Shown piece by piece: positions 23,761 through 57,560 of a stretch of 64,000 nucleotides of DNA (positions are counted from its first letter, which is position 1; every line of letters begins with the position of its first letter). The position numbers and the translations under genes are program-made. Below the pieces are notes generated by a model. That model was given only the letters and a program-made list of their open reading frames with translations. It ran no database searches and was not told the DNA's origin. The stretch comes from Tridacna crocea (taxonomy: Eukaryota; Mollusca; Bivalvia; Cardiida; Cardiidae), in contig OX031072.1 in NCBI GenBank assembly GCA_943736015.1, positions 17,511,501-17,575,500 on the forward strand. The letters are read 5' to 3'.

Positions 23761-25438
23761 ACAAGAGGGCCAAGATGGCCCTGGATCGCTCACCTGAATT
23801 TTTGAGATGACCATAGCCTATTTTTTACTGAGGTATTGAAACATTGGAACCAAATTTATAATTTTCCCAAGCAATTTTCAAAAGGAATTCTTCATTTCTG
23901 TATAAGAGCAAGTAGCCCCCATCCACGAGAGCCATGTTTCTTGATGGATCAAAATTTACGAACAAGTTTTGAAAAGGGTCACCCGAGGAACATTTCGGAA
24001 AATTTCTTTTAAAATCTGACCAGGGGTTTCAGAGAAAGAGAATTTTCGAGAATTTCATCATGTCCATATAGTACAAGAGCCATGTTTCTTGACGGATCAA
24101 AATTATATGTACAGTTTTCGAAAAGGGGTCACCCAAGGAACATCTCTGTCGAATCATTTTAAAATCTGACAAGGGGTTTCAGAGAAGAAGAATTTTCAAG
24201 AATTTATTCATTTCCATATAGTGCAAGTAGCCCCGATTCACCAGAGCCATGTTTCTTGACGGATCAAAATTTCGTGAACACATTTTGAAAAGGGTCACCC
24301 AAGGATCATCTCTGTGAAATCATTTCAAAATCTGTCCAGCCGTTTCAGAGAAGAAGAATTTTTAAGAATTTCTTCATTTTCGTATAGTGCAAGTAGCCCC
24401 CATTCACAAGAGCCATGTTTCTTGACCAATCAAAATTTCGCGAACATATTTTTAAAAGGGTCACCCAAGGAACATCCCCGAGAAATTATTTCAAAATCTG
24501 ACCAGCGGTTTCAGAGAAGAAGAAATTTTAAGAATTTCCTCATTTCCGTATGGTGCAAGTAGCCTCCATTCACCAGAGCCATGTTTCTTGACCAATCAAA
24601 ATTTCGCGAACAATTTTTGAAAAAGGTCACCCAAGGAACAACTCTGTGAAATTATTTCAAAATCTGACAAGCTGTTTCAGAGAAGAAGAATTTTCAAGAA
24701 TTTCTTCATTTCCCTATAATGCAAGTAGCCCCCATTCACCAAAGCTATGTTTCTTGACCAATCAAAATTTTGCGAACATGTTTTGAAAAGGGTCACCCAA
24801 GGATCAACTCTGTGAAATTATTTCAAAATCTGACCAGCAGTTTCAGAGAAGAAGATCTTTTAAGGATTCCTTCATTTCTGTATAGTGCAAGTAGCCCCCA
24901 TTCACCAGAGCCACACTTTTTGACGGATCAAAATTTCACGAACACTTTTTGAAAAGCTTCACCCAAGGAACATATCTGTGAAATTATTTCAAAATCCGAC
25001 CAGTGGTTTCAGAGGAGAAGATTTTTAAAGAATTCCATCATTTTTGTAAAGTGCAAGTAGCCCCCATTCGCCAGAGCCACATTTATGACGGATTAACATT
25101 TCACGAACAATTTTGAAAAGGGTCACCGAAGGAACATATCTGTGAAATAATTTCAAAATCCGACCAGCGGTTTCATCAGAGAATATTTTTAAAGAATTTG
25201 CTAAAAAATCCATTTGGTTGCCACGGCAACCAGAGGTTTGATGGAATCAATTTCGGTGAACAATTTTTAAAGAGGACCTCCCAAGGAACATTCCTGCGAA
25301 GTTTGGTCCAAATTGGCCCAGCGGTTTAGGAGGAGTTGATGTTTAAAGAATTGTTGACGACGCACGACGGACGACGGATGACGGACACCGGGTGATCCTA
25401 AAAGCTCCCCTTGATCACTTTGTGCTCAGGTGAGCTAA
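23761..25438 (+). mobile_element. Helitron-like element, core type alpha (copy alpha-1)
   Basis: A 1,678-bp element. The 5' end is ACAAGAG followed by the hairpin GGGCCAAGATGGCCC and CGCTCACCTGA. The middle is about eight tandem units of roughly 165 bp, each with CAGAGCCATGTTTCTTGAC, GAAAAGGGTCACCCAAGGA and TTTCAGAGAAGAAGAATTTT. After the array comes a unique tail with GGTTGCCACGGCAACCAGAG and an ACGACGGACG-rich run. It ends in a short stem TGATCA-CTT-TGTGCTCA, the inverted word TCAGGTGAGC, then CTAA. No protein is encoded. A 3' hairpin before CTRR, sub-terminal inverted repeats and a tandem core match non-autonomous Helitron/Helentron elements (DINE-1 and bivalve pearl elements in style). 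No Rep/helicase gene is present to confirm it. Confidence 0.75.
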
Positions 25439-26733
25439 AAATGAATATTACAGGTCAATAAAAGTTCTTATGGCAGGACGGCTGCCATGAAGATTTCAGC
25501 CAAAATGACTGAATGATGCAGGAGAAAAGGACAACAGCTATTGCTCATACGGCATGACGGATAGGCAATCCGATTCTGATATAGTCTTCAAACTTCGTAG
25601 TGAATGTGTTTTGTGCGGATGTTTTTGTATATGTACGGATGTGTTTGTATACTTTTTTTTAGGAAAGAGGGGGAGTGGGAGGTATGGTAACGAATATTTT
25701 CAACTGCGATCTTATCCAATTGAATTAAAGCCGATTTATTTACATTTATGGTTAAACCGATCGTAAAACTTTTGATATAGTGCATGAGGACTGCGTCCTG
25801 CAAGAAACTGACGCGGCTTTTGATGGAATTCGAACCCAAAACATCTTGTACGAGGATCTGATGTTTTTTACCTAAACTTGTGTCTGCCAAAGACTTTTGT
25901 CTCAAATAATTGATGATGATGCTACTTCAAATTGTTCAGTCTGACAGTGCAAAGTTTAATCTCTATAAAATGCTTGCATGTGAAACAAGATTTCAACCAA
26001 TGAGGCACTAATGAAAAACTTTTGATTTTCCCTTTAACAAAGCAAAGACAGCACTAAGAAGATTACAGAAATGTAACACCAGGTTAAGAGGCTTAATCAA
26101 GAACCCTTTTTTATGAAATGTTCTCACGCTAATAACTGAAGAAAATAGTAAAGACGGCCTGAGACTATCAGATGTCCCCGATGAAAGTTCTTTGCTGCAC
26201 ACAGTAAATCAAAGTGCTGATAGTAACGAGTTTGGTTGTGTGTTGTTAAACACTGATTTCGTATATGAACTTTATTCTGGCAAATGAGGGCTTCTTGCTT
26301 CGTTGTAAGCCTTAACATGATTATGGATCCATCAGCACGTTTTCTAATTACCGACTGAATCATGTGCTAGCATGTACCTTTGAAACGCAAAAAGTTGATC
26401 AGAAGAAAAAAAAAAGTTTTGTCCCATGTCAGCCAGGACTTTTTGCAGATCTTTTCAGTCCCATTTTCACATGGTGTGGCTCATATCATTTATTACGTCA
26501 CCAGTTCACATTTTCAATCTTTTTTTGGGGGGATTAATTAATCCCAATCTCGGACTCTGTGGTGCCTCGTTTATAAACACTCCATTATGAAAAGCGCCAC
26601 CCACGGAAATTAATCTAAGGAATATTTTTCTAATCAAGACGTAACGCCTTGAACCACGTTTTCTAACCAAGATCAAACCTGTCTGCAGAATCAACTGAAG
26701 CCGGTTTTAACTCTTTAAGATTTATAGTGGGCC
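25439..26733. other. No gene seen
   Basis: No repeat or gene family recognised. Overlapping short frames on both strands (25588-25905, 26124-26363, 26506-26694) show no domain. Confidence 0.4.
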
Positions 26734-26941
26734 TTAACCCTTTCCCAAACAAACCATGGTTTTTACGTGTCTGCGGTACAAGTCCTTAGAAAACAATGTG
26801 GGAAAAGAAGAAATCGCTCGTAACGAGCAATTTCTCCTTTTCCCACAGTGTTTTCTAGCCTATCGAAAAACTTTCTGTATTGTCATCTGCAAACACTTTT
26901 AGTTTGGGACAGTCTAAAATTTGTCACTGGGAAAGGGTAAA
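26734..26941 (-). mobile_element. TTAA-type palindromic MITE, A/B intermediate (copy A13)
   Basis: Starts TTAACCCTTTCCCAAAC and ends GGGAAAGGGTAA (last TTAA mutated). The outer parts follow family A. The palindrome centre GAAATCGCTCGTAACGAGCA then ATTTCTCC is closer to family B, which makes it informative for how the families are related. Confidence 0.75.
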
Positions 26942-27548
26942 AAGGGCACATGATCTGACTTCGCTTCGCAAAATGTAGGAAATCGTTATGCACACATTTG
27001 CTTTTTTAAGGAGAATCAATATGATTATATTCGTGCGCAGGCTTGTATTTCTAATTCACCTGTATAGATGGCAGGAAATTTAGATGTATTAAGAAATTAA
27101 GGTATTTATGTTTTTTTTTTCATGAATAATCCATGATAAATACATTATGAGTATGGTGGCAATTCTTTTCAACAAGATACGAGATAACTATCGTAATAAT
27201 TTTAGAAAACTATCGCCATAAATTGAAGTTTCCTGGAAATTTTATCGAGATAGTGAAAAGTTCCAAAAAAAAAAAAAATCACAATAAACTTAATATTTTA
27301 AGGCAGAATTTCTTAATCGAGCGCGAAACTGACATTCAAGATAAAATTTTCTCGATAATTCTTTTTGTTTCTCGATATCTATCAATAAAAAATTTATACA
27401 TATAAATATACGTATTATATTTTAATTTGGATGAACTCGATGGACTTTGACTTCACAAGATCGCATTTAGTAAAAATTCGAATCGTTGAAAATTGTAGCT
27501 TAATAGGTACATTTTGACAAGACTCGAAATGAACAGAAGTCTGTAAAA
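26942..27548. other. AT-rich, no gene
   Basis: A poly-A run lies near 27270, with a high density of short AT words. Nothing recognised. Confidence 0.4.
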
Positions 27549-27979
27549 CAACAGGGCCAAGATGGCCCTGGTTCGCTCACCTGAATTTTTGAGAGGACCA
27601 TAGCCAATTTTCTCACAATCTAAACAACCAGTTCAGAGGAGAAGAATTTTTCAGAATTTATTCATGTCTTTTTATTTGTAAATAGCCCACAGCCATCAGA
27701 GCCATGTTTCTTGATGGATCAAAATATTTCGAGCAATTTTTGAAAAGGGTCAACTAAGATACATTTCTGTGAAATTATTTCAAAATCTGACCAGCCGTTT
27801 CAGAGAAGAAGAATTTTTAAGAATTCCTTTTTTTCTGTATAGTGCAAGAAGCCCCCATTCACCAGAGCCATGTTTCTTGACGTATCAAAATTTCACGGAC
27901 AATTTTTGAAAAGGGTCACCGACGGACACCCAGTGACACTAAAAGCTCCCCTTGAGCACGTTGTGCTCAGGTGAGCTAA
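27549..27979 (+). mobile_element. Short Helitron-like element, core type alpha (copy alpha-2)
   Basis: A 431-bp relative of the element at 23761. The 5' end has GGGCCAAGATGGCCCTGG and CGCTCACCTGA. There are about two core units (AGAGCCATGTTTCTTGA twice). The 3' end is the perfect hairpin GAGCAC-GTT-GTGCTC, then AGGTGAG and CTAA at 27976-27979. It shows that array length varies while both ends are kept. Confidence 0.75.
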
Positions 27980-28324
27980 AAATCAGCTGCTCGTCAAGCT
28001 CTGTCGATAATGAGGATGGGTTTCAGCTTTTAGACATGGGTTTGAATCCAATCGGAGAGATTTTTCGCAATTTTTATCTTCAAAATTAGTAAACAGTCAC
28101 ATCCCAATGATTTTTTTTATTTAATGTATAAACTTATCCCCCTCACCGAAAGACCCACCCCCTTTCCACTTACACACACATACTAAAAAAAAAAATTACA
28201 AGCGGTGTCATTCTAATTTAACTCTCCTTTCCAAGAAAATAAATCACACTTTTTCATTGGCTACAAATATAGTTCCACTACAAAATAAAGAGACATGTAG
28301 GCCTTAATCTAACATAACGTATAG
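27980..28324. other. No gene seen
   Basis: Unassigned AT-rich DNA. Confidence 0.4.
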
Positions 28325-28565
28325 TGGACAGTATAGATCGAAGATCAGGACCCGTATTCACCGACCAGTCTTGAGAACGTTATTGGTCTCAGCCTCCAGA
28401 ATTTTCTGAATTTGAAAATAACATAACTTCTGATTGGCTAAACCATTTGGTTTAGCCAATCAGAAATTGTGTTACTTTCAAATTTATAAAATCTTGGAGA
28501 ATAAGACTAAGAATGTTCTTAAGAACGGTTGGTGAGTACAGGCCCAGACTACACTGTCCACAAAG
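28325..28565. mobile_element. Family D MITE interrupted by a family C element (copy D6)
   Basis: Left remnant GTGGACAGTATAGATCGAAG then ATCA; right remnant AGACTACACTGTCCAC. The central hairpin of D has been lost at the junction, where family C (28348-28545) is inserted. Confidence 0.6.
28348..28545. mobile_element. Palindromic MITE, family C (copy C2)
   Basis: The ends are GGACCCGTATTCACCGACCA and GGTTGGTGAGTACAGGCCC. The centre is GGCTAAACCATTTGGTTTAG with GATTGG and CCAATC outside. The whole 198 bp folds on itself. Confidence 0.85.
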
Positions 28566-28595
28566 GCTTCTGCTGACGTCAAAGTAAGAAAAGAG

Positions 28596-28800
28596 TTAAC
28601 CCTTATCCTGCTAAATAACTAAAACGAGATTCTTAAATTGATCGTAAAAACACAAACATTGGTATCTTAAAATAATGTTTTGACGGAACAGTATCTTCTT
28701 CTCGGACAGTGTAGATCAAAGATCAAACTGCACGTTCTGTGCAGCCTGATCTTGATCTATACTGTCCGCAAACGGTCGGTGAGTCGCGCATAGACCCATT
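28596..28800. mobile_element. TTAA-type palindromic MITE, family D (copy D7)
   Basis: Starts TTAACCCTTATCCTGCTAAA. The inner hairpin is GATCAAACTGCACGTTCTGT then GCAGCCTGATCTTGATC, preceded by CGGACAGTGTA and followed by TATACTGTCCG. The right terminus is not sharp. Confidence 0.65.
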
Positions 28801-29189
28801 ACAAGTATAGGAAAGCATCTATCCGATTCATGGTATAATAAAAACATACTGACGAACTTGTCGTTATCTTAACGAAATTTTTTGTTATTCATCCGTAAAT
28901 GGATTTAAACAAATAAGGATAAAATGCTACAGTAACCCCCAGCCCCTTTCCCTCTGAAATAAACTTCGGAAACCGTTTTTTTTCTTCTTTTCTGCAAATA
29001 AAACTGATTTTTGGGTCATGGTAACGTTACAGATACACGTAGGGAGTAGATCAGAGCCAAGATTTATTTTCAGATCTTGACTCCGTCCGCAAGAGGTGCT
29101 AAATGATACTGAGGGCGAATTGAAAAGTTATCAAAGTTTGCGTTAACTGTATGCCAGTCTGTTTCAAATTAAAGGCATTTGCACTCGAG

Positions 29190-29353
29190 AAATAGGGCTA
29201 AAACGATCGAATATGTTCTTGAAAAGATTGAAAACATTGTGAGAAAAGGGGAAAATGCTAGTAATCAGAGTTTTCTCTTTTAACCCACAATGTTTTTTCT
29301 ATGCAGTCTTTCATGGAGGCATTAAGTCACAAAAGTGTTTTGTAAGGTGTTAA
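29190..29353 (+). mobile_element. Partial family A MITE (copy A14)
   Basis: GGGCTAAAACGATCG, the arm GAAAACATTGTGAGAAAAGG, GGAAAATGCTAGTAATC, the opposite arm TTTTCTCTTTTAACCCACAA, and an end GTAAGGTGTTAA. Confidence 0.6.
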
Positions 29354-29549
29354 AAAAAGAATTCCATTTGTCATTTACAGTTACTGCTTCGAGATGAAAC
29401 TTTAATCTGATTAGTTCTTTCTCCAGACCGAGTTATCTTCTGTAAGGGATTTTAATGTTGCAAAATACGGTTTGTTCTTGCAACAGGAATTTGAAAACGA
29501 AATCATTTGTTAGTTATAGAATCGCTCAATGTTTAATTTGAATGTTCGA

Positions 29550-29551
29550 GC

Positions 29552-29583
<32 letters not shown>

Positions 29584-30065
29584 GAGAGTCAGAGAGAGAC
29601 AGAGACAGAGAGGAAGAAACTGAGAAAAGTTGCAATGGGTGAGGGAAAGTCAAAGAGAATGCAAGAGACATGGAGGGGATAGACGAAAAAAAAAAAAAAA
29701 ATGATTTAAATGAAAGAGGAAAAGAAGGAAAGATAGCAAGAAAGACAACGTAAGAGAGGTACGCAAAACGGCGGAACAGAAGATAGAGAAGGGAAAAAAG
29801 GAGAGAAGAGGAGAGAAGAGGGAATAGAAGAGTCGCTGGAAGGACAGCAATGGAGACAAATCAACAAGAGAGGAAAAAGAAGATGGTGTTTCTTTTAGGC
29901 GGGAAGATGGAAAGAGTGGTTGTCAGTACTGGTGCAGGGTACAGACAGCCATTGCAGGAAGAACAGGGCAGACCGTGAAAGAAATAAGAAATATAAAGAA
30001 GGGATATAGAAGAGATGAATAAAGAGTAAGCAGGATGAGCAGAGGAAAGCAAGAGGAGATATAGA
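29550..30065. repeat. (GA)n microsatellite inside a long purine-rich tract
   Basis: A (GA)n run at about 29551-29608 leads into some 450 bp in which the plus strand is overwhelmingly A and G (GAGAAGAGGAGAGAAGAGGG and similar), with few pyrimidines. Open frames on the minus strand here (Ser/Phe/Leu-rich) are by-products of the strand bias. Confidence 0.75.
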
Positions 30066-30160
30066 GGCACCATAAACGCGGAACCTAGTGACAGCACCAT
30101 ATATGCGGACTGCAGCGACAGCACCATAAATGCGAACTACAAGAAGGCACCACATCGTTG
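30065..30160. repeat. Small array of the 27-bp minisatellite
   Basis: About three units of GCACCATAAACGCGGAAC type, the same unit as the larger array at 30505-30895. Confidence 0.7.
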
Positions 30161-30504
30161 TCTGCGCATGTCATATTCTTCGAAGAATCGACTGTCCTAT
30201 ATGATGCATCACTAGCCCCGAAAGCGGACAGAATGTAATATTAAGCTCTATAAAGTAGCAATGTAGAAAATGGCTTTTATCAATACGTTTCAGGAGAAAT
30301 GAGACCTGATTTAGCTCCAGATTTCTCCAAACTGCTGATCATAGCTGAGTGAATTGCACTAGGTAGCGTTTTATTGAGTAAACGTTTAATTTTAGTTTGA
30401 AATTCAAAGTAATGGTTGTCGCGTAGGAAAATGGTTCAGTTCTGTACCCAGGATGCCCAAATTAGATAGATGAGTATTTACAGAATTTCATCAAGCGGGA
30501 GATA
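30161..30504. other. Unique spacer between two minisatellite arrays
   Basis: No gene or repeat recognised. Confidence 0.4.
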
Positions 30505-30895
30505 ATGGGCACCACATACGCCAACGGAAGAGAAAGCACCATAAACCCGAACTGCAACGAAAGCACCATAAACACGAACGGCATCGAAAACACCATAAAC
30601 GCGAACTGCAACGATAGCACCCTTTGACGCGGACTGCAGCGACAGCACCATGAACGCGAACTGCATCGAAGTCACCCTTTAACGCGGACTGCAGCGACAG
30701 CACCATAAACGCGAACTGCATCGAAGGCACCATAAACGCGAACTGCGCCGAAGGCCCCATAAACGCGAACTGTAGCGAAGGCACCAAAAACGCGAACTTT
30801 AACGAAGGCACCATAAACGCGAACCGCATCGAAGGCACCATATACGCGAACTGCAACGAAAGCACCATAAACCTGAACGGCAACAGAGGCACCAT
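30505..30895. repeat. 27-bp minisatellite
   Basis: About 14 units of the pattern GCACCATAAACGCGAACTGC then AACGAAA, with unit variants such as CACCCTTTGACGCGG. The 27-bp period keeps minus-strand frames open as a nine-residue repeat (FMVPSLQFA-like). The absence of a defined start, end or codon bias argues against a protein. Confidence 0.85.
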
Positions 30896-30919
30896 TTTAC
30901 GGAATCCTGTTTCCGCCAT

Positions 30920-31222
30920 CCACTTTTCGACTTACGAGGAACTAGGGACACTAACTTCCACTTTTCCAGCAAGAAAGTTACCCCGAAAAGTAGAAAAGTT
31001 GAAGATTTTGACCAGACAGTTGTCAAAAAACTTTCCATTGTTCGATCTCAAGTTTAACTAGAAAAATAGAAATTAGAAAGCACTAATTTCAACTTTTCAC
31101 GTTTAAATGTTAGGTCGAAAAGTGGAAGTTTTTCACATGACAATTGTCAATAAAACATCCACTTTCGACCAAGAAAAGACAAAGTCGAAAAGTTGAAAAG
31201 TCGAAAAGTTGAAAAGTTGTCT
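30920..31222. repeat. Cryptic repeat with AAAAGTTGAAAAGTCG units
   Basis: CGAAAAGTTGAAAAGT-type words repeat at 31172-31220. Related words (TCCACTTTTCGAC, GAAAAGTAGAAAAGTTGAAG, GTCGAAAAGTGGAAG) are scattered in both orientations back to 30920. ACAGTTGTCAA/ACAATTGTCAA recur as well. Confidence 0.5.
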
Positions 31223-31700: not shown

Positions 31701-31739
31701 GGCAGAAAGCATTTTCATCATACAAGCTTGACTAAACAA

Positions 31740-31808
31740 GCGGATGGAATAGATCCAAGATTAGACTGCACGTTTTGTGCAGTCTAATCTTGATCTATGT
31801 CGTCCGCA
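31740..31808. mobile_element. Family D palindrome (copy D8)
   Basis: AGATCCAAGATTAGACTGCA, CGTTTTGTG, then CAGTCTAATCTTGATCTA and GTCCGC. It is a clean hairpin lacking the outer TTAA ends. Confidence 0.6.
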
Positions 31809-35289: not shown

Positions 35290-35683
35290 CCGTATTTACC
35301 AACCATTTATGAGAATATTCCTAGTCTTTTTCTCCAGGGTTTTCTAAATTTGTAACTTTTTAATGGCTAAACCGAATGGTTCAGTCAATCAGAATTTCAG
35401 TTTCTTACAAATTTAGAAAATTTAGAAGACAAAGAACTTTCTTAACCCTTTCCCGAACGGCCAAATTTTAGACTGGTCCAAACTGAAAGCACTGCAACCG
35501 ATTAAATAAATGTAATTCAAAAAATGAAATTTGTTTCCAGTATGGTAGAAAACATTGTGGGAAAAGGAGACAATGCTGGTTACTAGCATTGTCTCCTTTT
35601 ACCACAATGTTTTCAAAAACGATTCAGTCTCAGGGTCCTAAAAACCAGGGATTGTTTGGTAAAGGGTTAAGAATGGTTGGTGA
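35290..35683. mobile_element. Family C MITE split by a family A insertion (copy C3)
   Basis: The left end CCGTATTTACCAACCATTTA, centre GGCTAAACCGAATGGTTCAG and right arm are followed by TTTCTTAA, where family A copy A18 is inserted. After it, TTAAGAATGGTTGGTGAA completes family C. Uninterrupted C copies carry TTCTTAAGAATGGTTGG at this spot. Confidence 0.8.
35442..35669 (+). mobile_element. TTAA-flanked palindromic MITE, family A (copy A18), nested in family C
   Basis: 228 bp between TTAA at 35442-35445 and 35666-35669, with ends CCCTTTCCCGAACGG and TTTGGTAAAGGG. The host site in family C holds a single TTAA, so this directly shows TTAA duplication on insertion. Confidence 0.9.
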
Positions 35684-36527: not shown

Positions 36528-36560
36528 GTAACATGTATAATATTGTTTGCTCGATAATTG

Positions 36561-36750
36561 TTTTACCATTTACCAAAGAGAATTTTGAAAACAGTGGAAG
36601 GAAAAAAATGCTGGTAACCAGCATATTCTCCTTTTTCTACACTGTTTTCTAACATTTATAAAACAAATTCTACCACATGTGCCATATTTGATTTCTCGCA
36701 CAGCTTTAAAATTTGACCTGTTTAGAATATGTCGTCAGGTAGAGAGTTAA
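36561..36750 (-). mobile_element. Family A MITE (copy A19)
   Basis: TTTTACCATTTACCAAAGAG, central GCTGGTAACCAGC, TTCTCCTTTTTCTACACTG, end GTCGTCAGGTAGAGAGTTAA. Confidence 0.65.
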
Positions 36751-37649: not shown

Positions 37650-38304
37650 TTTTCGATAAACTACGTCACTAAGTAAAATCAAAGCAATACCTTGTGGGCA
37701 CTCTAGAGGCCATATTTTTCTCAACTGACTTGAAAATTGGTCAGATTGTTTGTCTTGATAAAATCTCTAATGAGTTTGAATGTGGGTCCCGTGGGATTAT
37801 AAACTAGTCACTAGGTCAAATTAAAGAAATATATTGTTGGTACTCTAGAAGCCACATTTATAGTTCAGATGATACGAAAATTGGTTTAAAATTTTCGTAA
37901 TCCAGGTCACTAGGTCAAATTAAAGAAATGCCTTGTGGGCACTATAGAGGCCACATTTCTTTCTCAATTGACTTGAACATTGGTCAAAATGTTTGTTCTT
38001 GATGAAATGTTGGATGGGCTTGAAATTGGAATTGATAAATTAGGTCACTTTGTCAATGTAAAGAAATACCTTGTAGGCACTCTAGAGGCCACGCTTATAG
38101 CTCAGTTAACTTGAAAACTCTTCAGAGTGTTTGTCGCCATAAATTTTATGAAGAATTCTAAACCTGGTCACGTGGGGTGATAAACTAGGTCACATTTTAA
38201 GCTCAACTGACCTGAAAATTGGTCAGAAACTGAATTATGCAAGTGGAGTGAAATTTCACCTATTGACTCAGGTGAGCGATGCAGGGCCATCATGGCTCTC
38301 TTGT
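37650..38304 (-). mobile_element. Helitron-like element, core type beta, 3'-truncated (copy beta-2)
   Basis: Read on the minus strand it starts ACAAGAG at 38304, then hairpin AGCCATGATGGCC, then CGCTCACCTGAG. Four to five units of about 130 bp follow, with GACAAACATTCTGACC-type and TGTGGCCTCTAGAG-type words, homologous to the element at 44303. No hairpin-CTRR end exists before about 37600, so the 3' part is missing. Confidence 0.7.
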
Positions 38305-39002: not shown

Positions 39003-39004
<2 letters not shown>

Positions 39005-40931: not shown

Positions 40932-41320
40932 TACAAGAGGACCAGAACGGTCCTGTGTTACTTACATATAAATACATTTATATCTTTTAGAAAAAAAAAA
41001 AAAAAATTACGTTCATTCATCAATACCAGCTGTATTCCATCATATACTTTAATAATGACAAACTTTCTATATTTCATGAACATTGTGAAAAAATTCAAGT
41101 CTCAAATGGCGCAAAAAGTTCACAATGTGAATTACTTTTTGTTAAAAACCAAAGTGATTAATTTCTGTAAACATTAAGATACCTGTTTAGAAAATGTAAC
41201 TTTTCGAATGCACTTAATTTTTTTTTCAAGGATTTGAGCTACCGACCTGCTATTGACCGGATGTGATCCATTTTCAAACTCGGCTGACATATTTTCTGTA
41301 CCATGTTTTACAAGAATTCG
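40932..41320 (+). mobile_element. Helitron-like 5' end with one beta-type unit (copy beta-3)
   Basis: ACAAGAG, then the hairpin GGACC-AGAAC-GGTCC. Downstream at about 41225-41300 is one recognisable beta unit (AAGGATTTGAGCTACCGACC, GACCGGATGTGATCCATTTT, CAAACTCGGCTGACATA). The 5' hairpin sequence differs from other copies, but its pairing is intact. Confidence 0.5.
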
Positions 41321-42002
41321 TTTTAAGATATGACCGCTAAATTAAACACAAGATAAAAGTTAACGGGAGGCGAAACATGGAGGACACAAACCGACAAAAG
41401 CTCACTCTAAGTACGTTCTGCAACCAGCTTTTGTACACTAAAGCGGTACCACCTTCTACAGTCGGTAGGTAGCAAAAATAACTTAATCAATTAATAACTA
41501 TGTCACTGTCCAATTTCGGAACACGAGTTGGATTAAGATTCAGAATGGTTAGTTCCCCTTCTGTCTCAGAATGATGAATTGTTGTCTAGAACTTTTTTAT
41601 CATTAAAATCCAGTAAGAAGTCGTGTTTTTTTTCTTGCAATTAAAGAAAAAGAATAAAGAATATATTTCAACTGAAAATTTGAAACTGACAATATTCATT
41701 GCGCATTTCACAACGGATACTGATGCTTTTACATATTCATAAAATTGTGACTGTTCACTACTTTACTTTAGATAGCTGATAAGCTTTTATCAGCTAGAAA
41801 GGTTAATTTGCTTGAAGAAAGGAACAAGTCAATCTTATAATGCTCACAAAAAACTGCAGGTTTTTTTTCTGACAATGGAGATTAAAATCAGAACAGATTG
41901 TATAGAAACCTTACACTACAATAAAAACAATCTAGATTATTCTCATACGAAAGCATCTGTATGCAAAGAAAAATATACGGATCAAGGAATCCCGTTTGTC
42001 AG
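41321..42002. other. No gene; small perfect hairpin
   Basis: TAGCTGATAAGCTTTTATCA then GCTA at about 41773-41796 is a perfect 10-bp stem. Nothing else recognised. Confidence 0.4.
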
Positions 42003-42207
42003 TTAATCTTTTATCATAGGACACGTTCCGAATTTTGTTAAAATGAATGTGTGTGCGAACAACGAATTTGAAAGAGGTAAACTGAATTGAAAGTCTTTGA
42101 CAGTGTAGAAAACATTGTGAGAAAGGAGAAAATGCTGGCAACCATTTCTTTTCCAAAGTCTTTCACTTAAGCGTTTAAAAAAAAAAAAAACGGGTTACGG
42201 TGGTTAA
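42003..42207 (+). mobile_element. Family A MITE, degraded (copy A23)
   Basis: TTAATCTTTTATCATAGGAC, GTGTAGAAAACATTGTGAGA, AAATGCTGGCAACCATTTCT, end GGTGGTTAA. Confidence 0.6.
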
Positions 42208-44302: not shown

Positions 44303-45963
44303 AAAAGAGGGTCATGATGGTCGCTCACCTGAGCCTTTTGACCAAACATGACCCATTTTCAGTCTCTTTTGAGATAATAGTGACAGAAATTCTACCAAGC
44401 TTTTATAATTATTGGACTAAAAATTTGGTCTCACTATAATCTCTAAAGCTTGAACACGAGCCTTTTTTAGACTCAGCTAGACATTGTTGATGTCATCAAG
44501 ACAAACATTCTGAGCAAGTCTCGTGAGTATTGAACTTAAACCGTGGCCTATAAAGTGTACACAAGTTTATTTTTTATTTATTTAAAGATCTGACATAGTC
44601 ATCCAGTTATTGACCTGACATGACCCATTTGCAAGTTTATCGAAGATGTTGTCAAGACAAACATTCTGACCAAGTTTCATGGGTGTTTGACTGAAAATAT
44701 GGCTTCTAGAGCTAACACAAGGTTTTTCAAAGATTGATTCTAGTGACCTAGTTTTTTAACGGACATGATCCATTTTCAAAATCCTCTTAGATAACATTAA
44801 GATAAGCATTTTGACAAACTATCACGTGTACTGTATTTGACTGAAAATGTGGCCTCTAGAGGGCACACAAGATCTTTGTAAGATTTGACCTTGTAACCTA
44901 TTTTCTATACCTCACCGGACCCATTTTCGAACAAGTCTGATATATTTTCCAGACGAACATGCCGAGCAAGTTTCATGAGTATCGAACCGATATTGTGGCC
45001 CTTAGAGCATACATAACGTTTTTCGAAGATTTGACATAGTGACCTAGTGATTGATACTACATGTCCCACTTTCAAAGTCATCCGAGTTAATATCAAGACA
45101 AACATTCTGACCAACTTTCAAATGTACTGGTCAGAAAACATGGCCAAAATCTTTTTTCCAAGATTTGACCAAGTGACATAGTTTTTGACCTAAACATTAT
45201 GCATTTTCAAACTCGTCGGAGATATTATCAAGACAAACATTCTGATCAACTTTCAAGAGTTTAAGACTGAAAATCAGCCCTCAAGAGCTTACAAAAGGTC
45301 TTTCTTTGGTTAGGTACCTAGTAGCCAACGTTTTTTTTACCTGACATGACCCATTTTCAAACCAGTCCAAGTAATCATCAAGACAAACACTCTGACAAAC
45401 TTTCAAGAGTTTTGGGATAAAAATGTGGCCCTTAGAATGTACACAAAGTTTTTCTAAGATATGACCTTGTGACCTTATTTTGACTGAAAATAATCCATTT
45501 TCAAACTCGTCCAAGATATAATCTAGACAAACGGTCTGAGCAAGTTGCACGAGTATCGGACTGAAAATGCGGCCTCTAGAGCGTACACAAGGTTTTCCTA
45601 AGATTTGACCTTTTGACCTATTTATTGACTAGCCGTGACCCAAACTCGTGCAAGATACTATCAAAACACAAAACATTCTGACCAACTTTCGAAAGCATTG
45701 GACTGTTATAAGGTCTCTGGAGAGTACCTGCGATTTTTCTTTATTACGACCTAGTGACCTAGTTTTTTATTTGACCTTACCCATCTTAAGTCGTTATAGT
45801 ATCAAATCAAACATCCTGAGCCAATTTCATGAGTATCAGACTGAAAATGTGGCCCTTAGAGCGTACACAAGGTAAAAGTTACCGACGGATGAAACACGAT
45901 CGACGACGGAAACAGCACTATCACAAAAGCTTACCTTAAGCACTTCGTGCTCAGATGAGCTGA
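44303..45963 (+). mobile_element. Helitron-like element, core type beta, full length (copy beta-1)
   Basis: A 1,661-bp element. It starts with GAGGGTCATGATGGTCGCTC then ACCTGAGC. The body is about ten diverged units of roughly 145 bp with CCATTTTCAAACTCGTC, ATCAAGACAAACATTCTGAC, AATGTGGCCTCTAGAG and ATTTGACCTAGTGACCTA. It ends AAGCACTTCGTGCT (a 5-bp stem), CAGATGAG and CTGA at 45960-45963. The CTRR-type end after a hairpin and the GCTCACCTGA / TCAGATGAGC inverted pair match the alpha elements although the array is unrelated. No protein is encoded; the minus-strand frames are array by-products. Confidence 0.75.
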
Positions 45964-50854: not shown

Positions 50855-50920
50855 GTTTAGATTCAAGATCAGACTACACGTGCTGTACAGTCTGATCGTG
50901 AATTATACTGTCAGCATAAG
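50855..50920. mobile_element. Family D palindrome (copy D12)
   Basis: AGATTCAAGATCAGACTACA, CGTGCTG, then TACAGTCTGATCGTGAATTA and TACTGTC. Confidence 0.55.
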
Positions 50921-51077
50921 CCCATGTCTTTGCTTTGAAAGCGCTGATGCACAGTAAGATAGAATGCATCCGCGGTATCTAATTTCATCTGAAAATCTCC
51001 GTATAACCAGGAAAAAAATATACATTTACAATGGAAAACTAATCTGTGTAATTTATATAGGTCCTTATTATAGCCTA

Positions 51078-51239
51078 AAGCACTGAGAAAAATTGAAATT
51101 TGTTTTGTGAACGGTTAGAAAACACTGTGGTAAAAGGAGAAAATGCTGATTACCAGCATTTTCTCATTTTCCCGCAATGTTTTCTAAAGGCTTCTTTCTC
51201 AGGGACATCAAAAGTAGGGATTGTGTGGTAATGGGTGAA
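51078..51239 (+). mobile_element. Left-truncated family A MITE (copy A26)
   Basis: Starts inside the body (TTGAAATTTGTTTTGTGAAC). The central stem around GCTGATTACCAGC is intact, and the right end runs GTGTGGTAATGGGTGAA (TTAA mutated). Confidence 0.7.
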
Positions 51240-51333
51240 ACAGGAACCAACAAATAATTAGGAGCAATTATAATATATAGGTGACACTCTTGGTTCTTGT
51301 ACATTTTGGAGAGAAAATAGGTGTTTATTTCAT

Positions 51334-51640
51334 CAGCTTGTGGTTAATATGGGGAAATACTGCCGAAAAAGGGAAAGGTATGCGAAAATAACGAGTGCCG
51401 TAAGGCACAAGTTATTTTCGCGGTCCTTTCCCTTTTGAGGCAAATATTTCCCCATATTAACCAGAAGCAGATGAAAAAATTATATATTTCCTCTGATTAT
51501 TTTGTCAACGAATGCCACTTTTAAAACTAGTGATCTCAGGTCAATTAACAGGATAACCGATATTTTAAAAAAAAGTAGTTCCAGATTTTCGGCAGGAGGA
51601 AAAAATTCACTGTGACGGAAAACTTCTTTCCCCTAGCTTC
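51334..51640. mobile_element. Palindromic repeat, family H (copy H2)
   Basis: TCATCAGCTTGTGGTTAATA, GCCGAAAAAGGGAAAGG, CGAAAATAACGAGTGCCG, then the mirrored ACCTTTCCC-type arm and CCCCATATTAACCAGAAGC. The right flank ATTTTGTCAACGAATGCCAC is the inverse of the left flank of H1, so the two copies lie in opposite orientation. Confidence 0.7.
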
Positions 51641-51839
51641 AATTACGACATTTCTTTACCCATAAGATTTCTTCTAAAAATAGACACATGAAATATAATA
51701 TAAAAGGTTCGTCTACAAAATGTAAATAAAAAAACATTCTATCAAAAGGCGGCATTGCTCGTTACGATCAACTTCTTATGTGCAAAAAAATCTTCTCAAA
51801 CAAAGCGAGCCTTGCTTTTTGAAAAGAAAATGTTTTAAT

Positions 51840-52067
51840 TTAACGCACTACCACAGAATCCCTACTTTTGACGACCCTGGGAAAGAAGCCTTTAAAAAAC
51901 ATTGTTGGAAAAGGAGAAAATGGTGATAAGCAGCATTTTCTACTTTTCCCACAATGTTTTATACCCTTCACAAAACAATTTCAAATTTTTATCCACCTTT
52001 ATTTTGTCGTCTGCAAATGCTTTCGATTTGGAGAAACTTTAAATATTGTCGTTTGGTAATGAGTTAA
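51840..52067 (-). mobile_element. TTAA-flanked family A MITE (copy A27)
   Basis: 228 bp between TTAA at 51840 and 52064. GACGACCCTGGGAAAGAAGC, a central stem with GTGATAAGCAGC, GTCGTCTGCAAATGCTTTCG, end GTTTGGTAATGAG. Confidence 0.85.
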
Positions 52068-52079
52068 TGCATCTGCAAA

Positions 52080-52340
52080 AAAGTAGATATTCAGATCAGG
52101 GTCCGTATCACCAACCATTCTTAAAAACGTTATTTGTCTTATTCTTCAAGATTTCCTGACTGTGAAAGTAACAGAACTTCTGATTGGCTAAACCATTTGG
52201 TTTAGCCAATCAGAAGTTCTGTTACTTTCACAATGACAAAATTTTGAAGAATGAGACTAATAATGTTCTTGAGAATGGTTGGTGAATACAGACCCAGGTG
52301 TGCAGTCCGCACAGACTGACCTGTGACGAAAATGTTTGAT
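52080..52340. mobile_element. Family J MITE interrupted by family C (copy J6)
   Basis: Left AAAAAAGTAGATATTCAGAT corresponds to the J arm. Right GTGCAGTCCGCACAGACTGA then CCTGTGACGAAAATG resumes J after the family C element at 52099-52295. Confidence 0.55.
52099..52295. mobile_element. Palindromic MITE, family C (copy C5)
   Basis: GGGTCCGTATCACCAACCAT to GGTTGGTGAATACAGACCC. Centre GGCTAAACCATTTGGTTTAG flanked by TTCTGATT and AATCAGAA. Inserted in a family J copy. Confidence 0.85.
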
Positions 52341-53064
52341 ATTTCTAAGTTTTCTACATGTCCATGGACCTATCTACCTCATGATTCAAGTAATTGTGTG
52401 AGCAAGGGAATTTTATGGATCTATTATAATGCAACGATTGCTTTGTATAATGAATGCATCAGGGAGATGCAGTAAGCATCCTTATTCCAGAGTGCCGCTA
52501 CAGTACAAATGAAAACTAAAGCTGTCCCTATATGTAACTTTATAGAAAAAAGTGTCAAGTTCATTGGGAGATGATTCCTTAACCAGGAAGAGTTGACACT
52601 TGAAAATTGCGTCTTACAAATCTTCAATATATGATCAATATATGTGCAAAGTTTAAATACAATTGAAGGAAAACTGAGGAGAAGTTTGCGACACAAAAAT
52701 TACAAGTATTATGTACACAGACGGACACACGGACAAACATTCCTTTTGCGGGGGTATAAAAAATCTTGGCATAAAGAGAATTGCCCACTGCGAATAATAT
52801 CTCTGTTTACCCTAACATTTCCGCAAGCGATCTGCCATAAGACGCGAAAAGTTTCGTCTGCAAGACGTAATGAGATAGGTTCGATTTGAGTCATTCGACT
52901 TAAGCCAATAATTTGTTGTATTTTTTGAGAGGTTAATCAACATCAGACATGCGAAAGCTGTCAGATTGAATATTTTTGTGCGTTCAGACTCGTTATCGGA
53001 AGGAAGCCCAAAGCCCACTATACTGCAAACATGTTCAATAGTTACGACTGTCTCCAAAACCACA
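52341..53064. other. No gene seen
   Basis: A J-like flank (ATTTTATGGATCTATTATAA) lies near 52410. The rest is unassigned; overlapping frames on both strands lack domains. Confidence 0.4.
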
Positions 53065-53485
53065 GTGATTTAGACCTGTCCAAAATTGAAAGCACTTGCA
53101 GAGGACAGTATATGGCTTCGGACATTTGCGTAAAGTGTCATCTCGGATCAGCCTGCGCAGTCCGCGCAGGCTAATCCGAGACGGCACTTTACCAGTTCAT
53201 TAGATTTTGTGTAACAATAGACTTGCACCTGTAAGACAGAAAATTACATAAAAACGGAAAAGTGTCGTTTCAAATTTGCTTGCGCAGACTGCGCAGGCTG
53301 ACCTGAGACGACATTTTACGCAAATGAACAAATGCCCCTTTTCGCGTGTTGCAAGCCATATTAAACATCGTAGGGGGAAAAGAAGAACCTGCTCTGGTAT
53401 ATAGTTTTATCTCCTTTTCCAACGATGTTTTCATAATACTGCCTTTTCAGGGTCGTTAGAACTTCAGATAGTTTGATAAGGGAAT
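53065..53485 (+). mobile_element. Family A MITE interrupted by a family I element (copy A28)
   Basis: Left part GATTTAGACCTGTCCAAAAT, TGAAAGCACTTGCAGAGGAC. After the insert at 53111-53360 it resumes TAAACATCGTAGGGGGAAAA, GAAGAACCTGCTCTGG, TCTCCTTTTCCAACGATG, and ends TTTGATAAGGGAATAG. About 50 bp of the A body is missing at the junction. Confidence 0.65.
53111..53360. mobile_element. Two-hairpin MITE, family I (copy I1)
   Basis: The ends are TATGGCTTCGGACATTTGCG and GTGTTGCAAGCCATA. Two GC-rich foldbacks lie inside: TCGGATCAGCCTGCGCAG with its mirror, and GCTTGCGCAGACTGCGCAGG CTGACC. The left end has lost part of the 50-bp terminal repeat seen in copy I2. Confidence 0.75.
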
Positions 53486-53575
53486 AGTTGGGTGATACTG
53501 TTTTTTCAGCTTATGTTACGCACCATCAAACAACTTCATGTCGTTTTCAATAGACACAAAGTCTTAACAGATTTT

Positions 53576-53804
53576 TTAACCCTTTACCCTATATAGCATT
53601 TCTATGGCATCTCTAATTGACCCTAAATGACAGCAAGGATGAAGCCGTTTCTTATGTGTAAATGACATCTTTTGATAGCATAGAAAACATTGTGACAAAA
53701 GGTGAAATTGCTCGTGACGAGCAATTTCACCTTTTGCCACAATGTTTTCCAAAGGCTCCTACAAGCAATGTGTAGAAATGACTATCTGTGGAGTAAAGGG
53801 TTAA
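53576..53804 (+). mobile_element. TTAA-flanked palindromic MITE, family B (copy B2)
   Basis: 229 bp with TTAA at both ends. CCCTTTACCCTATATAGCAT, CATCTCTAATTGACCCTAAA, a perfect central stem GGTGAAATTGCTCGTGACGA then GCAATTTCACC, and end GGAGTAAAGGG. Confidence 0.9.
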
Positions 53805-54157
53805 AATGAAATTTCTGTTCGACATCTTGCGTTTTTCAGGGACATCTATCAACTTTGACGTCTTTTTTTAAAAACATTTTCGTAATATTACTATTGAAGA
53901 GATGTCCGAAACGATCTAAAAGACCATATAGTTGTATGTACACAGGTACCTTACCAGGATGGAACTTTACACAGTATTTTCAAAAGACTCTTTCCGTATA
54001 GTCCTTCATTTGAATTAGGACTGAACAGCCAAGTTGAGTAGAACTAGAGACAAAGTTTATTTAGTACCAACATCTGTAGCAAGTAAACATCAACAACACA
54101 TACAACAAACAGGAGAACAGAGCTAACGATAGGCCAATTACACTCTATACTGAGAGC
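53805..54157. other. No gene seen
   Basis: Unassigned. Confidence 0.35.
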
Positions 54158-54320
54158 AGAGCTCCAGATGAGAGGAAGGGTTTTCTAAATCCATTATTTT
54201 TCTTCGAAACCCTATGTTGTGAGTATTCATTAGATTCGTCTCAATGAAACGATTCTGTTGAGTACCCATAATGTAGGGTTCAATGCAGAATAATCATCAA
54301 TTGATAATTTTCAGTTATTT
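54158..54320 (+). mobile_element. Family G MITE, right end degraded (copy G3)
   Basis: AGAGCTCCAGATGAGAGGAA, CCATTATTTTTCTTCGAAAC, GAGTATTCATTAGATTCGTC, then the mirror GACGATTCTGTTGAGTACCC. Confidence 0.65.
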
Positions 54321-54349
54321 ATCGAGAAATAACGGGATATTTTATGCTT

Positions 54350-54495
54350 TTCAAGAGTCGACTGTGCTACGATATTATCGCGATAGTACGATGATGATAA
54401 CGCGAAAGTGCGATTGTTATACGAGATAGTGCGATGATGATAACGCGATGATGTATCATACTATTATCATCGTACTATATTGTTATCGTCGTCGT
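54350..54495. repeat. Cryptic CGATGATGATAACGCGA repeat with inverted section
   Basis: Words like GCGATAGTACGATGATGATA and GCGATGATGATAACGCGA repeat on the plus strand, then appear inverted (TATTATCATCGTACTATA, TTGTTATCGTCGTCGTAC), so the region can fold. Confidence 0.6.
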
Positions 54496-54602
54496 ACAAT
54501 CGAGCATCGCGTTTTAAATTGACAAATTCATAGGCGATGGCCCTACAGGTATTCCGTAATAAACAAATATCCCCTACATTTTTTGATTTTATAACCAAAC
54601 TC

Positions 54603-54622
54603 ACTTTCTCTCTCTGTCTCTC

Positions 54623-54654
<32 letters not shown>

Positions 54655-54667
54655 CCTCTCTCTCTCG
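54603..54667. repeat. TC-rich microsatellite (TCTC / TCTG)
   Basis: About 60 bp of TCTC and TCTG repeats. A minus-strand Arg/Glu-rich frame across it is an artefact. Confidence 0.9.
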
Positions 54668-55119
54668 TTTCCTCTTTCTCTGAAGCTCTGATAGAGAATT
54701 CAAAATGTGTTGCAGAACCACACAGGAACAGACAATGTCTCATTTAATAGTCTACACGAGTGCCCTGAGGCCAACGTGACGGAACGAGATCGTCCTCTCT
54801 TGTATGTCTATGTCCACACAAGCAATAAAAATCGGAAGATCTTTCAATGACCAATATTGACTTCTGCCAGTTCTAATGTCTAGGAATATAATCTTCGCTG
54901 TTCATACTTGAGCCATTTTCTGGCAAAACGGGATTTCATGTATCTCCGTGACCCGTAGTACAAAGTAGAAGGCATAATATAATTATGGATACGAAAAATC
55001 CATGTTGTATAACAGGCGACTTAGTCATAAGCTAGAATGGTACCTGGAATGCGCAGGCTGATATGGGTCTGTATTTTTTCTGGTGCATTTTACCCCTTTT
55101 TCTCAGAGATTGAACCGTA
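54668..55119. other. No gene; degraded family J copy
   Basis: J remnants at 55020-55100 (GAATGCGCAGGCTGATATGG then GTCTGTATTTTTTCTGG), with AAAATCCATGTTGTATAAC upstream. The rest is unassigned. Confidence 0.4.
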
Positions 55120-55393
55120 TATGGCTTGCAACACATGAAAAGGGGCATTCGGACATTTGCGTAAAGTGTCGTCTCGGATCAGCCTGTGCGGACTGCGCAG
55201 GCTGATCCTAGACGGCACTCTACGACTACATTAAATTTTTATGCCACAGTAGACTTGCGCAAAACAGAAAATCTTATAAATTACGGAAGGTGTCGTCTTG
55301 GATTAGCCTGCGCGGACTGCGCAGGCTGCGCTGATCCTAGACGACACTTTACGCAGATGTCCGAATGCCCCTTTTCACGTGTTGCAGGCCATA
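55120..55393. mobile_element. Two-hairpin MITE, family I (copy I2, complete)
   Basis: 274 bp between TA dinucleotides (55118-55119 and 55394-55395). The terminal repeats are about 50 bp: TATGGCTTGCAACACATGAA, AAGGGGCATTCGGACATTTG and CGTAAAGTGTCG, mirrored at the right end. Two GC-rich foldbacks inside share GCCTG(C/T)GCGGACTGCGCAGG. A TA target duplication would suit a Tc1/mariner-type origin; that is inference. Confidence 0.85.
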
Positions 55394-55872
55394 TATTCAT
55401 GATAAAGTGGTGACAAATAACTTCGATGCTTTTGGATTCAATAGCTCTGCCGATCTGTTGGGGAAGATGAGAGTGAAGAGTCAACTCCCTGTTGGCACGA
55501 CGAACAAAGAACTCGGTAACAACAGTCCGAACACTATATTAAAGCACGTGCTCGGATCGTCGTTATCGACATCTGCATTCTCACTTCCTAAACCTGTGCT
55601 TGAACTCTTAATATCTGCGATCCTTTGTACAAATGTAACATTTCCAGTAGCCCTGACGAGGTTTGTCAACTTCGAGTACTGACGGCATTGTTAGGCTGCC
55701 TTTCTGGTTCCGAAAACGCATAGCTCTCGTCCATTCGGCAGACCTCTGGTAATCTGTAGATCAAATCCCATGGTTGTATTACGGTGGCTGATATGCATCT
55801 ACGTGGCAAATATATTCGTTGGAAAGATACTGTTTTACCGTTCTTATGAATAACTATAAGGCTACTTAAAAA
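55394..55872. other. No gene recognised
   Basis: Less AT-rich than average, with overlapping open frames on both strands (55365-55682 plus, 55481-55669 minus), but no domain or splice pattern I can support. Confidence 0.35.
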
Positions 55873-57560
55873 ACAAGAGGGCCATGATGGCCCTGTATCG
55901 CTCCACTGGCTTTTTACTCCTTTACCACACAAATTGAAGTGTTTCTGACCATGAAAAAGAGGGCCTTCAAAAACAATGAACACTGTCAGGCAATACAAGC
56001 AGGTTATTTCATTAGCAAGAAAGGTAAAATCCTTGGAAAAATAAGCTGAATGAAAGAAACCTTACTCTGAATTCATTATTCAACTATGCTCATGTGAGCA
56101 TAACTATTAGCATCAAAATGAATCACACCTTGAAAACAGAATATTTTCTATCAAAAAACTTAATGTCTAGCACAAATCATGTATCACTGCAGTTTGATAA
56201 TCAAGGGAGGTAAATAGTAACAAACTTTATCTTTCATAAAAAGAGTTATTTCCCTTGATCAACGTTTGAATTGAAGTGACTATATTTTGAAGCCCATGTT
56301 AAACTTTTGAGCCAATTTTGACCCCAGACCTACAGTATGAAACTAGAATGTGTGGTTATAAACAAGAAAACCTTTTAATCTTGCCCAATCAAAAGCCCTG
56401 TAAAACAAGTTTGCTCAATAAAAGGCCCTGTAAAATAAGTGACCCATGAGACAGACTTATCAAGGTTTCACTATAAAAGCCAATGTAAAACTTGTGACCT
56501 CTGGGGTGGGTTCAAACTTGACCCCCAAAGTTAAAATCCGGGCCCTCTTGGTAGAGGCCCATTAGATAAAGCTAGATGCAAAATTTGGTAGCCCTAGGCC
56601 TTATGGCTATGTACGAGTAGATTATTAAAGTTTCCCTATATAAGCCTATGTAAAACTTAAGAGCCCCTGGGTAGGGGCTAAATTTGACCCCAGGTCTATA
56701 ATTTGGGCACCCTTGGTAGAGACCCCCTAGGTAAAGGTACATGCAAAATTTGATTGCCCTAGCCCTTATAGCTAGGTGCCAGAAGATTTTGAAAGTTTTC
56801 CCCATATAAGCCCATGTAAAACATGTTACCCCCCGGGGCAGAGCCAAATTTGACCCCTGGGCTATAATTTGGACACCCTTGGTAGAGGTCCACTAGATAA
56901 AGCTACATGACAAATTTGGTAGCCCTAGGCCCAATGGCTAGGTCGAAGAAGAATTTTAAAGTTTTCCCTATATAAGCCCATGTAAAACTTATTACCCACG
57001 GGGCAGGGCCAATTTTGACCCCAGGGCTATAATTTGGACACTCTTGGTAGAGGTCCCCTAGATAAAGCCACATGCCAAATTTGGTAGCCCTATGCCCAAT
57101 GGCTAGGTAGAAGAGGAATTTTAAAGTTCTCCCTAAATAAGTAAAACTTGTGACCCCCCAGGGCGGGGCCAATTTTGACCCCAGGGCTATAATTTGAAGA
57201 AACTTGGTAGAGGTCCACTAGATAAAGCTACATGCCAAATTTGGTAGCCCTAGGCCTTACGGTTTCAGACAAGAAGATTTTCAAAGATTTTCAAAATTTT
57301 TCAGTTTTGTTGCCATGGCAACCAGAGTTTTTGAAGGAATTAAATTCTTTCAAGAATTTCTGAAGAGGACCATGGCAGGATCATTTCTGTGAAGTTTCAT
57401 CAAAATTGGATGGGTAGTTTCTGAGAAGAAGATGTTTTAAAAAAAGTTAACGCACGGACGGACGGACGGACAGACGGATTGACGGACGGACGGACGTACG
57501 GTCGCACGACGGACAACGGGCCATGACATAAGCCCGCTGGCCTTCGGCCAGTGGAGCTAA
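55873..57560 (+). mobile_element. Helitron-like element, core type gamma, full length (copy gamma-1)
   Basis: A 1,688-bp element starting ACAAGAG, hairpin GGGCCATGATGGCCC, TGTATCGCTCCACTGGC. It has a unique left part of about 600 bp. About five units of roughly 163 bp follow with TATAAGCCCATGTAAAACTT, GGGCTATAATTTGGACACCC and GGTAGCCCTAGGCC. A tail holds GTTGCCATGGCAACCAGAG and a GACGGACGGACG run. It ends CTGGCC-TTC-GGCCAG, TGGAG, CTAA at 57557-57560. The hairpin-CTRR terminus is the best in the window. The sub-terminal words GCTCCACTGGC and GCCAGTGGAGC are exact inverse repeats. No transposase is encoded. Confidence 0.8.

Follow-up and report, generated by a model that had tools for sequence, protein, structure and literature searches.

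Array-bearing elements in a Tridacna crocea contig as probable non-autonomous Helentrons, with candidate Rep-encoding partners that share their ends

The window analysed here is a stretch of 64,000 nucleotides from Tridacna crocea (assembly GCA_943736015.1, contig OX031072.1, positions 17,511,501 to 17,575,500), in which several repeat copies share their ends, ACAAGAG beside a short hairpin on one side and a hairpin before CTAA or CTGA on the other, around tandem arrays that differ between copies. This locus raises the question of which class of mobile element such copies belong to, in which direction they are read, and where their arrays come from. A sequence-only reading had called them Helitron-like, starting at ACAAGAG; its description of a rolling-circle-type, non-autonomous, Helentron-like family with sub-terminal inverted repeats (subTIRs) and a tandem core was upheld, and its direction was reversed. 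The elements are very probably HINEs, i.e., non-autonomous Helentrons (Helitron2-type), lying on the opposite strand, and units encoding a Rep, a PIF1 helicase and an EEP endonuclease are their candidate partners, with mobilisation by the route proposed further below.

Rep-encoding loci were collected by a PF14214 search of the 1.05-Gb genome assembly, which gave 32 Rep hits, some of them pieces of one locus. Ten loci, chosen mostly for long open reading frames (ORFs), were inspected in 20-kb contexts, with 5 kb more upstream added for E2, E8, E9 and E11. Autonomous Rep/helicase partners with the same ACAAGAG ends had been named as what to look for, and candidates were found at 4 of the 10 loci (E2, E8, E9 and E11), as 14.7-16.7 kb units with window-type ends on the Rep strand. 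The order on that strand is 5'-TTTT-TAGCTCACCTGAGC...IR...(GTCC)n...array...ORF...TCAGGTGAGC-palindrome-CTCTTGT-3' (IR, inverted repeat). TTTT-TAGCTCACCTGAGC with its IR and GTCC microsatellite lies upstream on the same strand as Rep (4/4), and TCAGGTGAGC-palindrome-CTCTTGT lies 2.0-3.6 kb past the ORF. The estimated chance expectation per locus is about 0.03 3' ends downstream and about 0.06 right-strand 5' ends within 6 kb upstream.

The ORFs of these four units are 2534-2728 aa long and free of internal stops. Helitron_like_N and PIF1 were detected in the E8, E9 and E11 proteins (those scanned), and a C-terminal endonuclease in E9 and E2, the two scanned for it (Exo_endo_phos, 5e-6; Exo_endo_phos_2, 2.8e-7); the domains listed for the ORFs scanned did not include a DDE transposase. 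The Rep motif FYRVEFQQRGSPHIHM carries the S given as diagnostic of Helentrons (PMC4067079), motif 2 reading EFQQRGSPHIH in E1, E2, E7, E8, E9 and E11 and EFQNRGSPHIH in E3. The N-termini of three Rep ORFs (L015, L017 and L019) match Herpes_teg_N (E 1.2e-8 to 2.4e-12), with no OTU hit listed for these three, and an OTU match (2.3e-6) was obtained in the other Rep family (L021).

Co-linear homology has an edge at the 5' end in the pairs E2/E11, E2/E9 and E11/E9, and for E2/E11 also at CTCTTGTTT; other matches beyond the ends of these units lie at inconsistent offsets, as dispersed repeats would. E8 and E9, on different chromosomes, are homologous from the 5' end on and keep the same order from the 5' array through the coding part. 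The 3' ends near E1, E3 and E12 were rejected as parts of coding units because they belong to short HINEs of 966, 871 and 516 bp (the 3'-like end of E1, at 18661, is within the 966-bp one), that near E17 is on the opposite strand, and no window-type 3' end was found in the contexts of E7 and E15. A second Rep family is represented by E12 and E15, which are 99.77% identical over 11.6 kb; its ends, fixed by this identity, have the same asymmetric layout. At the E15 element (G000:C17 near 42260958, L024; the other copy is on C16) the 5' end of a second copy directly follows, forming a head-to-tail junction.

In the published HINE/Helitron2 layout the 5' subTIR is terminal and pairs with an IR, after which come a GTCC-type microsatellite, an array, a 3' subTIR and a palindrome (PMC7492417). 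This order fits the window elements only on the opposite strand, so that their polarity is reversed and no CTRR end remains. Read from 5' to 3', an element thus opens with a T and the 5' subTIR AGCTCACCTGA or AGCTCCACTGG, with which an inverted repeat just inside can pair. A GTCC-type microsatellite and a short run of satellite-like monomers of 140-167 bp follow, then the 3' subTIR and a palindrome (GGGCCATSWTGGCCC, for instance), and CTCTTGT-3' closes the element. The subTIRs are asymmetric, at 1 nt from the 5' end and 27-28 nt from the 3' end, in agreement with the Helentron/HINE pattern of an internal 3' copy and a 5' copy 0-4 nt from the terminus. The true 3' end is the palindrome with CTCTTGT, which had been taken for a 5' ACAAGAG and hairpin; the true 5' end is T-AGCTC..., a subTIR paired with an inverted repeat, and the CTAA/CTGA that had been taken for a Helitron 3' terminus is the reverse complement of 5' TTAG/TCAG. 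Both the Rep-strand order and the empty sites described below contradict the direction first proposed. Canonical Helitrons (Helitron1) running from a 5' ACAAGAG to a 3' hairpin-CTRR are accordingly a very improbable reading: a hairpin does precede CTAA/CTGA on the strand as read, but CTRR stands at the end adjoining the 5' subTIR, the Rep ORFs with window-type ends run the other way, and the Rep motif has S, not L. None of the canonical marks (5' TC, 3' CTRR, insertion between A and T) was found; the ends on the Rep strand are 5' T-AGCTC and 3' CTCTTGT, and the target is a T-run before C or T.

Within the window, ACAAGAG lies at 17041, 23761, 38304 (minus strand), 40933 (earlier given as 40932) and 55873, and the far ends at 25435, 27976, 45960 and 57557 are present as first described. 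By itself the heptamer was rejected as a signal, its count not being above chance (15 matches vs 9.9 expected, with 15 reached in 7 of 100 shuffles). Together with a perfect stem of at least 5 bp it is above chance: 5 sites have both, whereas 30 dinucleotide shuffles averaged 0.37 and never gave more than 2. One of the five, 35269, is outside the elements first listed and may be chance, and 38304 is not among them because its stem is imperfect. Eight copies with about four body types were delimited (the remnant at 19204 is unassigned), as follows.

23761..25437, minus strand: complete HINE with body A; both ends match the Rep-encoding loci E8 and E9.
23761, 3' end of this element (reverse complement of ACAAGAG): 3' palindrome at 23766-23782 and 3' subTIR at 23788-23797.
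24076-25199, array of this element: 166-bp monomers, 6.8 copies.
About 25355-25390, GACG-type microsatellite of its 5' part, with the IR at about 25404-25414, the 5' subTIR at 25426-25435 and the 5'-terminal T as A25437.
27548..27978, minus strand: complete short HINE with body A and about 2 monomers; 10-bp subTIRs perfect, palindrome intact, 3' tag worn to ACAACAG; stretches matching the 23761 element are mostly 73-90% identical, one 63%.
44303..45962, minus strand: old HINE with body B, about 9-10 copies of a monomer of about 144 bp; 3' palindrome eroded; 5' subTIR AGCTCATCTGA.
55873..57559, minus strand: complete HINE with body C; 165-bp BIV160-like array at 56465-57259; ACGG microsatellite at 57450-57514; subTIRs GCTCCACTGGC/GCCAGTGGAGC.
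37650..38304, plus strand: 3' part of a HINE with body B, inner limit set by eye; no matching 5' end in a search to 4.5 kb.
40933..41440, minus strand: eroded HINE with a B-type body; 5' end degenerate, limit by eye; variant 3' palindrome AGGACC/GGTCCT.
17041..17560, minus strand: partial HINE with body D, 2 units 161 bp apart, inner limit by eye; 3' palindrome GCGAA/TTCGC with TCTTGT; 5' end looked for and not found.
19204..19245, minus strand: eroded 3'-end remnant only, CGAGAGGGTCATGATGGCC... GCTCCACC.

The subTIRs of the two ends pair perfectly over 10 bp in the 23761 and 27548 elements and over 11 bp in 55873, and with one mismatch in 44303. Folded as DNA, the ends of 23761 gave z-scores of -2.0 and -3.4 and those of 55873 gave -1.5 and -2.6, which is modest for the 3' ends, and neither end of 44303 folds better than shuffles (z 0.21 and -0.44). 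The claim that worn copies keep the hairpin thus holds by sequence for 27548 and fails for 44303, with 19204 too eroded to say.

The same ends are abundant genome-wide, with 19,379 matches to the 3'-end pattern (up to 2 mismatches) and 19,814 to the 5'-end pattern (up to 1 mismatch), or about one per 106-108 kb per strand, and 0 for reversed-pattern controls. The exact terminal pattern had 0 matches in viral contigs. Twenty 3' ends were picked by hand at more or less regular intervals among the first 100 exact matches on C1, with a pattern biased toward GCCATGATGG and against body A; 14 had body B and 6 body C. Both ends were located in 14 sampled elements; in 13 of these the two ends carry subTIRs of one type, and L033 is without a 3' copy. 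A 5' end in the expected orientation was found within 3 kb for 19 of 61 exact 3' ends listed, compared with 1, 6 and 0 for the other three arrangements; the 5' ends in this pairing list were of the GCTCACC type only, which left C elements unable to pair. Six of the 61 listed 3' ends on C1 have a same-strand 5' end beyond them within 3 kb (about 1 expected by chance, as an estimate), and at L038 two HINEs stand head-to-tail with only a T-run between them.

Empty sites were sought for 21 candidate elements, of which at least one was a false pairing (the 616-bp one inside the long unit of E9). Junction-spanning paralogues were clear for L043, L044 and L050, in a miniature inverted-repeat transposable element (MITE), and approximate for L045 and L048, in a repeat; the remaining candidates gave no usable junction-spanning match, and the apparent empty site of L038 was dropped because it is the neighbouring HINE. 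The filled site of L050 reads GGAG, the element, and then AAAAATGC, versus the empty GGAGAAAATGC, and L043 and L044 are similar. At these few sites the element sits in a T-run followed by C or T, and nothing is duplicated beyond the ambiguity of the T-run: one extra T at L050 was taken as the element's own 5' T, L044 has one or two, and no target duplication longer than 1 bp was seen at the empty sites found. The 3' end is followed by T in 14 of the 20 sampled elements, by C in 5 and by A in 1.

These sites also bear on TIR-type MITEs (TIR, terminal inverted repeat), as pearl elements have been called, to which next to no probability is assigned, less even than to Helitron1. Inverted repeats do lie near both ends, but they are sub-terminal and asymmetric (1 nt vs 27-28 nt), no target duplication beyond the T-run ambiguity accompanies them at the empty sites found, and the partners encode a Rep/helicase with no DDE transposase domain listed in the scanned ORFs. 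The T-run of a palindromic MITE-like repeat (GGGAAAAGGAGAAAATGCTGGTAACCAGCATTTTCTCC) is the insertion site for L043, L044, L045 and L050. This repeat is very common (198 and 199 junction-spanning matches for two queries, a palindromic copy being counted more than once) and lies in the window at about 26730-26950 and 35460-35670, with stretches resembling it by eye near 17690-17760, 36560-36660 and 42110-42160.

The origin of the arrays was approached by comparing the bodies with each other and with the Rep units. The bodies had been described as unrelated, which is partly right: B and D showed no clear relation to A or C, but A and C share 402 bp at 65%, and a third array connects their monomers. 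A profile built on six monomers of E11 hit body C best at 1.6e-32 (7 hits) and body A best at 4.8e-10 (10 hits), versus 1.0 for the best shuffled control, which makes A and C distant kin; a direct C profile on body A was unconvincing (0.19). The E11 and C profiles each gave one weak hit in E2 outside the D-like stretch (5.5e-4 and 0.002). Homology of body B to A or C was rejected as not clear, nothing better than 0.02 being obtained against other arrays by profile (best control 0.13).

Each of the four Rep units carries a microsatellite and a 158-167 bp array behind its 5' end, and these match window bodies. The array of body A recurs in E8 (88% over 681 bp) and E9 (81% over 1623 bp), the 167-bp array of E11 matches body C (69.6% over 1110 bp), and E2 has two arrays, of 161 bp and 158 bp, of which the 158-bp one matches body D (78-83%). 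E9 is matched by the window A element over roughly its first 1.6 kb and over its final 66 bp, the pattern expected of a simple deletion derivative. Body C, with its 165-bp period, matches the published Dt-BIV160 primers with 2-3 mismatches (PMC5139131), a comparison by primers and not by the BIV160 consensus. The bodies are therefore read as largely Helentron 5' array modules. The reading moderately favoured from this is that the autonomous Helentrons here are satellite carriers, with a lineage-specific, exchangeable array (A, BIV160-like C, or D) behind a conserved 5' end and upstream of the Rep gene; that HINEs are their coding-deleted shadows; and that bivalve satellites such as BIV160 were dispersed, and perhaps born, as Helentron 5' modules.

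HINEs could instead have captured arrays from genomic satellites independently of autonomous elements, one model discussed for Cg_HINE. This is considered unlikely: three of the four body types recur in Rep-encoding units, where they occupy the same place in the 5' part and point the same way. On its side are BIV160 and its kin, which are also satellites in other bivalves (PMC5139131), body B, which lacks a partner here, and the C and D bodies, which stand behind different ends in HINEs and Rep loci. E11 has its C-like array behind a GCTCACC-type subTIR, C HINEs carry GCTCCACTGG, and E2 and the window D element have different 3' palindromes; arrays and ends may thus be partly exchangeable, or the ends may have diverged.

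A still less probable reading, though clearly ahead of Helitron1, keeps the window elements as HINEs and takes the arrays in front of the Rep ORFs for HINEs that inserted independently, or for what is left of HINEs, next to coding units unrelated to them, the autonomous Helentrons then not being satellite carriers. HINEs are dense enough to suggest it (about one 5' end per 106 kb per strand), the 5' ends of E8 and E9 are duplicated, and additional HINE-like 5' ends precede the ORF of E11. Against it, the E8 and E9 copies, which sit on different chromosomes, agree in array, coding part and the order of the two, with homology from the 5' end on; a right-strand 5' end within 6 kb was found at 4/4 loci with about 0.06 expected at each; and no 3' end turned up between array and ORF in the end scans. 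In E8 (L030 and L015/L016) and in E9 (L029 and L017/L018) each of the two 5' ends has an array, and the inner junctions are at different monomer positions.

Several observations weigh against the reading of the window elements as HINEs with satellite-carrying autonomous partners. Some Helitron2 encode Rep in the opposite direction (PMC3627910), so the Rep strand alone does not fix the polarity. Window-type ends are absent from the coding unit at 6 of the 10 inspected Rep loci, and the Rep motif of E12, E15 and E17 (RGMVHWH, RGMIHWH) is of neither published type. In E2 and E11, array and coding part are linked by lying together on one strand and by matching ends, not by contiguous homology, and E8 and E9 each have two 5' ends before one coding unit, leaving the true 5' end ambiguous by about 1 kb. 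None of the four candidate units is a partner for body B, the commonest in the sample (14/20). At L043 there are two extra Ts, and a 1-bp duplication inside the T-run is possible.

The comparisons show directly the structure of the ends, the polarity in the four Rep units, the arrays behind their 5' ends, the copy number and a few empty sites; rolling-circle movement, trans-mobilisation of HINEs, the integral place of the arrays in E2 and E11, and array exchange are inferred. A partner Rep would nick at the 5' T beside the subTIR/IR hairpin, its helicase would peel off a single strand, the 3' subTIR and palindrome would terminate the copy, and the copy would be joined into a T-run before C or T. 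HINEs would retain just the two ends and an array, using the partner protein in trans. For body A the best reading is an origin by deletion from E8/E9-type Helentrons, and the C and D bodies may have been derived from, or exchanged with, other lineages carrying their own arrays.

Two further features of the window were identified by eye, one per line.

14396-15634, minus strand: G-protein-coupled-receptor-like ORF.
17930-18397, plus strand: reverse transcriptase of a non-LTR retrotransposon, C-terminal end, with a TTA microsatellite after it.

HINEs that carry satellites, with unrelated arrays between shared flanks, have already been published for oyster (PMC7492417). Candidate autonomous partners with matching ends and arrays were found here, unlike in the oyster HINE paper, where ten autonomous elements could not be related to Cg_HINEs (PMC7492417), and in the oyster genome paper, where no autonomous element is reported and CTAG-ended copies with subTIRs are suggested as Helitron/Helentron intermediates. 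The partner link was not seen among the matches listed, in excerpt, from open-access literature on autonomous Helentrons/Helitrons, tandem repeats and bivalves or molluscs (subscription journals and Repbase being outside this scope). A search of papers for exact element sequence strings gave a single match, to a paper on human cancer without relation to these elements, and five further strings matched nothing. A Helentron 5' end on the wrong strand mimics a Helitron 3' end (hairpin and CTRR), which may explain the CTAG-ended oyster "intermediates", as judged from this genome and not from oyster DNA. The origin and spread of bivalve satellites also become directly testable, by monomer phylogeny across autonomous and non-autonomous copies.

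Among known systems, Cg_HINE of Crassostrea gigas (PMC7492417) has the same order of 5' subTIR, IR, GTCY/GTCC microsatellite, 140-180 bp array, 3' subTIR and palindrome, T-rich targets without duplication, and, in Cg_HINE group 2, related flanks around unrelated arrays; this likeness is judged by layout and not by consensus sequences, and here arrays also lie inside Rep/helicase/endonuclease units with the same ends. Helentrons and HINEs/DINE-1 (PMC4067079) share the subTIRs, the 3' palindrome, the T-rich target, a Rep/helicase fused to an endonuclease and the S in Rep motif 2, whereas the Rep-encoding units here carry satellite-like arrays, and the N-terminal part of three scanned ORFs hits Herpes_teg_N with no OTU hit listed. 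Helitron2 (PMC3627910, PMC5148889) is similar in its asymmetric inverted repeats, one close to the 5' end and the other about 20-30 bp short of the 3' end, its hairpins at both ends and its target of TTTT followed by T or C, but Helitron2 proper is without the endonuclease that is present here. Lastly, pearl, CvA, MgE, DTC84 and the satellite BIV160 of bivalves (PMC5139131, PMC7492417), set beside the window elements by description, likewise have short arrays of monomers of about 160 bp in mobile elements.

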